Positions 18,924 to 59,197 of a stretch of DNA of 64,000 nucleotides are shown here, piece by piece. The stretch lies in the NCBI RefSeq assembly GCF_900636535.1, contig NZ_LR134289.1, positions 1,674,001-1,738,000 of the forward strand, written 5' to 3'. A program made the position numbers and the translations under genes. Source of the DNA: Chryseobacterium gleum. GTDB taxonomy: Bacteria > Bacteroidota > Bacteroidia > Flavobacteriales > Weeksellaceae. Each line of letters starts with the position of its first letter. Position 1 is the first letter of the stretch. The notes beneath the pieces were generated by a model. That model had not been told where the DNA came from. It saw nothing but the letters and a program-made list of their open reading frames with translations, and ran no database searches.

Positions 18924-19364
18924 ACTGATATGACGGTTAGCCTTTTGGTTTTACTTTAATAAATTTAAAATATTTTTCTTACAATTCAGTTTTTCTTTTA
19001 TCCATCGGTTTTTTATCTTCTCAATTATCCCCGGATTACTCATTACTCATTACTCATTACTCATTACTCATTACTTATATTTGAGGGAGCTTTTTCCCGC
19101 TATCCGCTCATACTCCTCACGCCAGAACATCCCACACTCCTGCCCTCAGACTCTCCCATTCATGTTCCGGGGTAACCGCTTCTATCGGGGCTAAGCTGAT
19201 GAGTGATAATTGGTAATTGATGAATGATAAAGATTTTTTATCCATTCTCAATTTCTGACGTCATTTGAGATTCCTACGGAATGACACAATTGTAATGATA
19301 GTTGATCCATACAGCTTGTCATTCCGTAGGAATCTAAACACCCACCTAGTCATAATAACAAAAA
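18924..19364. repeat. Repeat-rich spacer with heptamer tandem repeat and inverted repeat
   Basis: No gene is seen. ATTACTC is repeated head to tail 5.9 times at 19035-19075. AGATTCCTACGGAATGACA (19268-19286) and its perfect complement (19317-19335) form a 19-bp inverted repeat around 30 bases; the same word recurs around 53.8-54.2 kb. Confidence 0.8.
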
Positions 19365-30150: not shown

Positions 30151-30210
30151 TTTAACCACCCCGTCAAAAATTCTTTGAATTTTCGCCCCCCACTCCGGAG
30201 GTTGGGAATG
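30151..30210 (+). repeat. Dispersed hairpin repeat, copy A (AACCACCCCGTC family)
   Basis: AACCACCCCGTC is followed by the AT hairpin AAAATTC-TTT-GAATTTT and a GC-rich half ending ggttgggaatga. It is a solitary copy of the repeat that brackets the DUF559 gene near 58.3-58.8 kb. The rest of 29982-30257 is AT-rich and empty. Confidence 0.8.
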
Positions 30211-30257
30211 ACTATCTGCCGATACAGTAATTGTAAGCTTTTACAGGAAATTTTTTT

Positions 30258-35421: not shown

Positions 35422-35482
35422 TTTAACCACCCCGTCAAAATTCTTTGAATTTTTGCCACCTTTCTAGAGGAGCGGAATATTG
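35422..35482 (+). repeat. Dispersed hairpin repeat, copy B (AACCACCCCGTC family)
   Basis: AACCACCCCGTC, the hairpin AAATTC-TTT-GAATTT, GCCACC, then a degenerate second hairpin (tctagaggagcgg) and GAATATTGAG. It lies directly after the icd terminator. Confidence 0.8.
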
Positions 35483-35547
35483 AGCACATATTTATTCATC
35501 AACGGTCGGCTCGCTCCTAATCCCTGTAACCTAACCTCTGTCACCTT

Positions 35548-41802: not shown

Positions 41803-41870
41803 TCTGGCTGAAGCCGGATGGATAATTACTGTTCCTGAAAGCGGACTAAAGTCCTCTGCTATTGATTGAA
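41803..41870 (+). repeat. Dispersed palindromic repeat (GGCTnAAGCC family)
   Basis: GGCTGAAGCC (41806-41815) is followed by CGGACTAAAGTCC (about 41842-41854) and a TATTGATTGAA tail. It has the same layout as 1641-1706 and 45951-46010. Confidence 0.75.
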
Positions 41871-41894: not shown

Positions 41895-41960
41895 TATTAA
41901 CCACCCCGTCAAAAATTCTTTCAATTTTTGCCACCCCTCCAAAGGAGGGGAATACTGAGT
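41895..41960 (+). repeat. Dispersed hairpin repeat, copy C (AACCACCCCGTC family)
   Basis: The best-preserved solitary copy. AACCACCCCGTC, AT hairpin AAAATT-CTTTC-AATTTT, then the perfect CCCCTCC-AAA-GGAGGGG hairpin (41934-41950) and GAATACTGAGTAC. No gene is seen between 41716 and 42050. Confidence 0.85.
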
Positions 41961-42050
41961 ACCTGTTCACTGATTAAGTGACAACAACCCCATATCCTTA
42001 ATTCTACAGCTATCATCTACTACCTGTTACCTATCATCTGCCTCTGCTCT

Positions 42051-46024: not shown

Positions 46025-46107
46025 ATCTTTTATCTTTTATCTTTTATCTTTTATCTTTTATCTTTTATCTTTTATCTTTTATCTTTTATCTTTTATCTTT
46101 TATCTTT
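46025..46107. repeat. (ATCTTTT)n heptanucleotide tandem repeat, about 12 copies
   Basis: Eleven perfect copies (46025-46101) plus a partial one. It ends about 147 bases upstream of the GNAT gene start. Copy number in such tracts is prone to slippage. Confidence 0.95.
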
Positions 46108-58150: not shown

Positions 58151-58206
58151 GGTTTAAGGTTTAAGGTTTAAGGTTTAAGGTTTAAGGTTTAAGGTTTAAG
58201 GTTTAA
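58151..58206. repeat. (GGTTTAA)8 heptanucleotide tandem repeat
   Basis: Eight perfect copies. It lies about 92 bases upstream of the hutU start (minus strand) and about 145 bases upstream of the DUF559 gene. The word resembles a telomere repeat only by chance. Confidence 0.95.
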
Positions 58207-58275: not shown

Positions 58276-58335
58276 AATTCCCCTCTCGCGGAGGGGTGGA
58301 TTTCAAAGTTGATAACTTTGGAAGACGGGGTGGTT
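58276..58335 (-). repeat. Dispersed hairpin repeat, copy D (left flank of DUF559 gene)
   Basis: Inverted orientation: AATTCCCCTC-TCGCG-GAGGGG (58280-58296), TGGATTT, hairpin CAAAGTT-GAT-AACTTTG (58304-58320), then GAAGACGGGGTGGTT. It ends 16 bases before the DUF559 start and faces copy E. Confidence 0.88.
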
Positions 58336-58351
58336 AAAAATAAACACAATC

Positions 58352-58789
58352 ATGAAAGAAATCATAACCATTATCATTGGAGTTCCGATCCGCAGGAATT
58401 TTGTTGAAAACCTTCCCTACAATCCCCATTTAAAAGCATTATTAAAAGAAAAACGTAAAGCCCGGATTTTGGGTGAAGTGATATTCTGGAAGAAAGTCCG
58501 TGCAAAAAATTTTCATAAGATTGATTTTGACCGACAAAGAATAATAGGAAATTATATTGTTGATTTTTATGTAAAAACATTGGGATTAATTATAGAAATA
58601 GATGGATCAAGTCATGATGAAAAGCAGGTTTATGACGGCATAAGAGAGGAATATCTTGAATCTTTGGGGCTTTTGGTTTTCAGAATAAGTGATTTTGATG
58701 TAAAGAATAATCTGAACGTGGTAATGAAAGAATTGGAAGACTTTATTGTGCAGCATTATGGAACCACCCCGTCTTCAAAAATTATTTAA
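58352..58789 (+). CDS. DUF559 (Vsr-like) endonuclease domain protein
   Basis: A protein of 145 residues of the DUF559 family in the PD-(D/E)XK nuclease superfamily, related to very-short-patch repair endonucleases. Key residues: E42 (GEVIFW), D71 in NYIVDFY and E82-x-D84 in IIEIDGSSHDE. The last residues, GTTPSSKII, are encoded by the flanking repeat E itself (58762-58789), so gene and repeat have moved or evolved as a unit. The N-terminal 22 residues before LPYNPHLKAL are unusual for the family. Confidence 0.88.
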   Translation: MKEIITIIIGVPIRRNFVENLPYNPHLKALLKEKRKARILGEVIFWKKVRAKNFHKIDFDRQRIIGNYIVDFYVKTLGLIIEIDGSSHDEKQVYDGIREEYLESLGLLVFRISDFDVKNNLNVVMKELEDFIVQHYGTTPSSKII

Positions 58790-58822
58790 TTTTTGAATCC
58801 ACCCCACCGAGGGAAGAGAATT
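58762..58822 (+). repeat. Dispersed hairpin repeat, copy E (right flank of DUF559 gene)
   Basis: AACCACCCCGTCTTC, hairpin CAAAAATT-ATTT-AATTTTTG, AATCCACCCC, a degenerate second hairpin (accgagggaaga) and GAATT. It overlaps the 3' end of the DUF559 gene. Confidence 0.88.
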
Positions 58823-58903: not shown

Positions 58904-59197
58904 TTAAGTTAGAACATCATCATTTTCCTCTTCATGGTCATCTTCATTATCGCTGAGACTCCAATAGTTATTTTCTTCATCTTCCGCCCCTATCTCTTCC
59001 ATCTCATCATCTTCTTCTGCACCGGGAATATCCAGTCCCTTATCAATTTTATCTTCATCAAAATCCTCATCTAAAACAGGATTTCCGTCTCCGTCAAGCG
59101 GAATATGTTTTTCTTTTTTGAATATATCTTCGTTGGGGTTATAATCCATCTGTTCCAGCTTTCTGTTTTGCTCATTAATATTGTTTTCTGGTGACAT
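58904..59197 (-). CDS. Hypothetical highly acidic protein
   Basis: A protein of 97 residues with strings of Asp and Glu (EEDDEMEEIGAEDEENN, ending DEEN-type tail) and little hydrophobic content; probably disordered in part. MSPENNINEQNRKLEQMDYN starts it, and a KEKHIPLDGDGNPVLDEDFD segment is its most ordered-looking part. No function is recognised. It is downstream of the dehydrogenase gene at 59247 on the same strand, with its own terminator. Confidence 0.75.
   Translation of the reverse strand: MSPENNINEQNRKLEQMDYNPNEDIFKKEKHIPLDGDGNPVLDEDFDEDKIDKGLDIPGAEEDDEMEEIGAEDEENNYWSLSDNEDDHEEENDDVLT

Follow-up and report, generated by a model that had tools for sequence, protein, structure and literature searches.

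The window, a stretch of 64,000 nucleotides from Chryseobacterium gleum, contains a 145-amino-acid DUF559 gene, the only one in the 5.6-Mb, one-contig genome, which lies between two inverted copies (D and E) of a repeat of about 60 bp. The repeat is built of two hairpins, hp1 and hp2, in the general layout AACCACCCCGTC-hp1-CCACCCC-hp2-GGGGAATT, and occurs in the window in three further solo copies. The features are as follows:

30154..30219, plus strand: solo copy A (motif search, covariance model)
35425..35488, plus strand: solo copy B (motif search, covariance model), position shared by 5 of 9 aligned relatives
41899..41963, plus strand: solo copy C (motif search, covariance model), position shared by 4 of 9 aligned relatives
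58276..58335, minus strand: repeat copy D, left border of the unit (sequence, covariance-model match); in minus-strand reading AACCACCCCGTC-hp1-CCACCCC-hp2-GGGGAATT
58280..58296, no strand assigned: hp2 of copy D, CCCCTC TCGCG GAGGGG (sequence)
58300..58323, minus strand: hp1 of copy D, arms CAAAGTT/AACTTTG (sequence)
58352..58789, plus strand: predicted DUF559 nuclease (Vsr-like, PD-(D/E)XK/EDxHD-type), 145 aa (ORF, Pfam, alignments, AlphaFold2 model)
58762..58822, plus strand: repeat copy E, right border of the unit (sequence, covariance-model match)
58774..58797, plus strand: hp1 of copy E, TTCAAAAATTATTTAATTTTTGAA (sequence)
58904..59197, minus strand: neighbour gene, 97 aa, syntenic anchor

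Copies D and E point outward on either side of the ORF, and the last 8-9 residues of the nuclease (...TTPSSKII) are encoded by copy E. The inverted arrangement, the C-terminal overlap and the three solo copies had all been proposed from the sequence in the original prediction and were found again here at the coordinates given above. The second hairpin, proposed to be perfect in copies C (CCCCTCC/GGAGGGG) and D, is present in D, with the small correction that its stem there is 6 bp around TCGCG.

In the Pfam search, the window protein matched DUF559 with 86.5 bits and another nuclease family below the cut-off, whereas no transposase domain was found. Its named relatives belong to Chryseobacterium. 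The residues of an EDxHD-type site are invariant or nearly so in the family alignments and are carried by the window protein. The AlphaFold2 model (pLDDT 89.8) resembles most closely the PDB folds 3hrl (E 9e-7) and 3r3p, the homing endonuclease I-Bth0305I (E 3e-4), while E. coli Vsr gave a weak match (E 0.21). Matches to enterotoxin and cholera B chains (E 0.09-0.9) were taken as chance. Within Pfam, DUF559 still carries the name "unknown function". A Caulobacter DUF559 protein has been linked to a cytosine methyltransferase and DNA damage (PMC12907096).

The AT-rich hairpin hp1 pairs in every copy although its letters differ, as had been claimed and was confirmed for D (CAAAGTT/AACTTTG), E (CAAAAATT/AATTTTTG) and A (AAAATTC/GAATTTT). 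For a statistical analysis, 22 distinct hp1 sequences (17 bases, ACC...GGT type) were used, these being the distinct ones among 47 matches at any position in the loci to a search pattern which itself requires those flanks. In this set 97.7% of the cells are paired and 35 cells are changed on both sides, compared with 12.1 after shuffling. The covariation score was 0.58 vs 0.151 in shuffled sets (0/500 shuffles as high) and at most 0.238 in a sliding control; kinship among the hp1 sequences can raise such scores. The number of double-change pairs (3; 374/500 shuffles as high) and of pair types (9; 64/500 as high) in the same set was not above that of the shuffles. Across the genus, the mean over 111 distinct hp1 sequences was 7.5 pairs vs 3.95 after shuffling, and the short hp1 class TTCTCC..GGTCGAA showed poor pairing in this simple count. 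The arms of the variable hairpin thus covary, and the covariation score together with the genus-wide pairing count supports the compensated arms that had been postulated.

The genome contains 17 exact occurrences of the 12-mer AACCACCCCGTC. When one mismatch was allowed, 36 occurrences were counted vs 17 for the reversed control pattern, some of these matches being clearly unrelated, e.g., in rRNA. The covariance-model search suggested in the original prediction was run on this genome with a model built from 20 copies and yielded 36 matches at E≤0.01 (weakest E 0.003). Copies D and E, 495 bp apart from start to start, form the sole pair less than 4 kb apart among these 36. None of the 30 copies read overlaps an ORF of at least 150 aa; the 145-aa DUF559 ORF overlapped by copy E is smaller than this cut. 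The hp1 of most solo copies in this genome differs from that of D and E.

Within the genus, matches to PF04480 were found in 98 of 148 genomes and were split by score into a window type (89 matches) and a higher-scoring type. An inverted CCACCCCGTC pair (at most one mismatch, within 350 bp) frames 68 of the 80 window-type genes read out of the 89, among which one (L340) is cut by a contig end. Nine others have a one-sided motif and three were scored as having none, one of them (L337) bearing one motif in the other orientation. The window motif was found in 0 of the 10 loci read of the higher-scoring subfamily, two of which (L032 and L033) sit within MetH and LeuS and have other repeats. Where the window-type gene is intact (72 genomes), the exact 11-mer has a median of 18.5 occurrences per genome; the median is 20 where the gene is broken or partial (9) and 5 where there is none (67), these groups having been assigned by hand. 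Motif number goes with the gene (Mann-Whitney p=3e-10 for intact vs none, uncorrected for phylogeny), and at least 10 motifs are still present in 23 of the 67 genomes without the gene.

Outside the genus, an inverted-repeat score of at least 30 was reached by 45 of 57 relatives of a Novosphingobium DUF559 gene, compared with 2 of 140 nearby ORFs, a rate biased upward because the query (L159) had been chosen for its clear repeats. These loci are mostly from alphaproteobacteria, some from other phyla, and the 57 scored remain from 64 after omission of six that were partial or near an end and of one (L221) dropped by hand. The Novosphingobium repeat, CCCCTCC-GTC-hp1-GCCA-CCTCCCC-hp2-GGGGAGG, has the same layout as the window repeat.

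In the same phylum, 20 hand-picked DUF559 genes (frames below 200 aa, one per genome; L168 with 84 bp on one side) were scored for the best inverted repeat formed by their two flanks of 250 bp. The median was 32.5 vs 18 for 204 neighbouring ORFs, and scores of at least 36 were reached by 8 of the 20 vs 4 of the 204 (p=2.9e-7). At L169, L170, L182 and L183 nothing was found in the 250-bp flanks. On plasmids, where DUF559 loci alone were scored, 9 of 15 reached at least 30: Azospirillum lipoferum, two Sphingomonas, Sinorhizobium, Sphingobium, Novosphingobium, Qipengyuania, Pseudanabaena and Deinococcus. The remaining plasmid loci (L151, L153, L155, L160, L162 and L165) scored below 30. Outside the genus, a clear inverted pair is missing at 12 of the 57 relatives, at 6 of the 15 plasmid loci and at no fewer than 4 of the 20 hand-picked genes. 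With 68 of 80 in the genus and 45 of 57 vs 2 of 140 elsewhere, the proposed link between repeat and nuclease proved to be both specific and wide.

Two of the plasmid loci have a particular gene context. In Sphingomonas parapaucimobilis (L157) the repeat-framed DUF559 gene lies between sufB and sufC, and in Deinococcus sp. NW-56 (L164) it lies in a cluster with hpa genes.

In a nuclease tree of 116 loci and 104 columns, with many unresolved forks and coarse repeat labels, the repeat types cluster (29 changes vs a shuffled mean of 61.1). L067, L076, L080, L087, L194, L213 and some others are not part of this tree. Four units in the type I restriction gene HsdR (L068, L070, L074 and L083; Pfam confirmation for L068) group together in one supported clade and occupy two different sites of the host gene.

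The DUF559 domain was also found by Pfam inside LeuS, MetH, HsdR and type ISP methylase genes, in frame in each case, and appended to a PurL-type GATase. No rate can be given for such units, since the 16 loci read were mostly picked for long frames. They appear to be kept in the protein, as judged from the open reading frames. In the LeuS of one genus genome (G045) clear repeats lie at both junctions of the unit, while the borders in a second (G060), in two relatives from the order and in MetH are hairpin-like and partly degraded. The comparison of filled and unfilled in-gene sites covers LeuS, which was found in 147 of the 148 genus genomes. Of 30 LeuS loci read, 2 (G045 and G060) are filled and 28 lack the unit, four of the latter containing short other inserts. 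In-frame units, hairpin borders in LeuS and the 28 LeuS loci of 30 that lack the unit together make the arrangement repeat–nuclease–repeat look like a mobile unit.

At the syntenic site of the window, presence and absence of the unit as well as both orientations were observed. The pair is present in 20 of the 30 best spacers and a single repeat in one; the other 9 have none, two of these (G108 and G034) with a neighbourhood that is itself different. Three genomes (G037, G044 and G125) have one hp2-like palindrome, AATTCCCCTCC-nnn-GGAGGGGAATT (imperfect in G044), as expected for loss by recombination between the hp2 arms or for a pre-insertion site. Duplicated target and deletion scar look alike here, and a target-site duplication cannot be defined because hp2 itself is palindromic. 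One and the same neighbour gene has 50 of the 89 genus matches on its 3′ side at a distance of up to 1.5 kb (27 in opposite and 23 in the same orientation), and a further 19 lie 1.8-9.3 kb off on that side. The window gene is thus largely syntenic in the genus, which argues that it moves rarely if at all.

Solo copy B is in place in 5 and solo copy C in 4 of the 9 relatives aligned for each, the copy being absent or reduced in the others. Since these positions are shared across relatives, both look like old positional orthologues, and recent insertion was rejected.

Tandem heptamers were noticed in two intergenic spacers of the window, GGTTTAA at 58151-58206 and ATCTTTT at 46025-46107. Related heptamer arrays adjoin the unfilled site in G037 and G044.

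Five known systems were compared with the unit. REP-like repeats are widespread, and a dedicated enzyme is known only for their GTAG class. The unit resembles the RAYT-REP/REPIN systems (REPtrons) in that its gene is mostly syntenic, as a rule present once and set between inverted palindromic repeats (68 of 80 genes in the genus), and in its dispersed intergenic copies (36 in this genome), which are commoner in genomes with the gene. It differs from them in that the enzyme is a predicted Vsr-like PD-(D/E)XK nuclease and not an HUH tyrosine transposase, and in that the window repeat has two hairpins. No HUH/Y1 transposase was recognised in the window protein by Pfam or by the fold search (3hrl and 3r3p best), and the repeat lacks the GTAG end tag, its conserved end being AACCACCCCGTC. 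The comparison with RAYTs in the original prediction consequently stands as an analogy, but not as membership. RAYTs are single-copy, vertically inherited and associated with more REPINs, as stated in PMC8049555.

As in the CGTC-tagged REPs, hp1 of the window repeat is preceded by CGTC and followed by CCA. At the DUF559 loci checked, no repeat of the GTCATTGCGAG type, an alphaproteobacterial CGTC repeat, was found (at most one mismatch) less than 1 kb from the gene. DUF559 is therefore not claimed to be the enzyme of all CGTC repeats; assignment of the window repeat to the plain CGTC class was rejected although the tag fits, and the common tag may be a coincidence. According to Di Nocera et al. 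(2013; PMC3733652), the stems of the CGTC REPs measure 8-9 bp with A-T pairs at positions 1 and 2, and these repeats apparently have no dedicated transposase. The window repeat does not follow this stem rule: its hp1 starts in most copies with AA or TT, and its stem lengths vary.

The third system is the Vsr-like homing endonuclease I-Bth0305I, which the window nuclease resembles in fold and sequence profile (3r3p), related DUF559 units resembling it in their in-gene positions. It belongs to the EDxHD family, and the modelled Vsr-like catalytic fold and conserved site residues of the window protein agree with this type. The window gene differs in being a free-standing ORF without visible intron or intein, and no Rfam match at E≤0.1 was found in window positions 29000-60000.

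The YcjD family, predicted to be of the PD-(D/E)XK type, belongs to the same Pfam family, E. coli ycjD being annotated as DUF559, and its profile detects Vsr according to PMC1189080. In contrast to the window locus, the two E. coli ycjD loci read have C-rich repeats downstream only, without an inverted pair. In the search for a clean strain-level empty site in E. coli, 3362 of 5426 genomes had a place matching the ycjD query over 80% or more of its length. Such a site was rejected, as the three gene-free strains read have efflux genes there instead. In the E. coli sapF-fabI region (L250-L255) one strain has a frameshifted ycjD copy.

Rickettsia palindromic elements (RPEs) are palindromic repeats that have entered protein-coding genes in frame, a likeness to the in-gene units described above. 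They differ in that a nuclease gene is carried here between two repeats; RPEs are not known to have such an enzyme. The R. conorii CGTC repeats have been equated with RPE-4 and RPE-6 (PMC3733652).

The association, its breadth, the hairpin covariation and the in-frame repeat-bordered units elsewhere were all observed, and the locus is best read, with a probability of roughly 0.6, as a nuclease-based, REP-bordered mobile or homing unit of the form repeat–DUF559–repeat. The inverted hairpin repeats would be the borders of a compact unit whose sole gene codes for a Vsr/homing-type nuclease, and the solo repeats would be its non-autonomous companions or remnants. The nuclease would most likely recognise the C-rich hairpin, i.e., hp2 together with its CCACCCC or CCTCACCC tail, and hp1 would serve as a structural spacer. 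The nuclease would nick or cut at this hairpin or at a target site, after which host repair would copy, delete or flip the unit. We infer these steps of recognition, cleavage and repair-driven copying by nuclease and host. The original proposal that the nuclease mobilises the solo copies found no support: B and C look old, most solo hp1 sequences differ from those of D and E, and 23 of 67 gene-free genomes keep at least 10 motifs.

A MITE-like element, in which a transposase encoded elsewhere acts on the terminal repeats and DUF559 is a passenger or stabilising cargo, seems unlikely. Terminal inverted repeats, as in insertion sequences and MITEs, are present, and these, the solo copies and a protein without a transposase domain would fit, but members of this nuclease family also sit within inverted repeats, of differing sequence, in distant taxa, and a mere passenger would hardly be so constant. 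Rather less probable still is a Vsr-like repair or hairpin-processing nuclease which preserves or prunes hairpins, the repeats spreading otherwise and flanking the gene for regulation. The Vsr/homing-like fold and the tie of the Caulobacter protein to a cytosine methyltransferase and DNA damage (PMC12907096) agree with this, but it explains neither the repeat-bordered in-frame units in LeuS and MetH nor the boxed-in position of the gene itself. An effect of chance or composition, since C-rich hairpins (terminators, for example) are common beside any gene, is very improbable: some control ORFs do score high (4/204; 2/140), but this explanation is largely contradicted by 45/57 DUF559 genes vs 2/140 control ORFs and by 68/80 vs 0/10 within one protein family and genus.

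The recurrence of similar pairings in distant bacteria points to an as yet undescribed partnership of a nuclease with repeats spreading through genomes. Among the open-licence PubMed Central papers retrieved, no title or abstract mentions a link between DUF559 and repeats. As a tentative generalisation, it is possible that DUF559 nucleases mobilise C-rich hairpin repeats across bacteria as minimal selfish elements without transposase or splicing, each nuclease lineage recognising its own hairpin, spreading by cutting and host repair and entering essential genes in frame at recurrent sites. A nuclease tied to hairpin repeats in distant taxa is a testable candidate for the origin of another repeat class and would give DUF559 a function, and LeuS and MetH would be important enzymes that put up with a mobile gene in their frame without splicing.

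Further dispersed repeats were noticed. In the window, GTCATTCCGTAGGAATC palindromes form inverted pairs at 19269/19318 and 54109/54175; none of the DUF559 loci checked contained this pattern. Inverted repeats of the GGCTAAAGCC type at 41825, 45976, 54291 and 54340 belong to another dispersed family. In one relative (G109, contig 1) exact ACCACCCCGTC motifs form direct arrays with a spacing of approximately 265 bp, located at about 2187115-2187909, 2258682-2258951 and 2277274-2277811.
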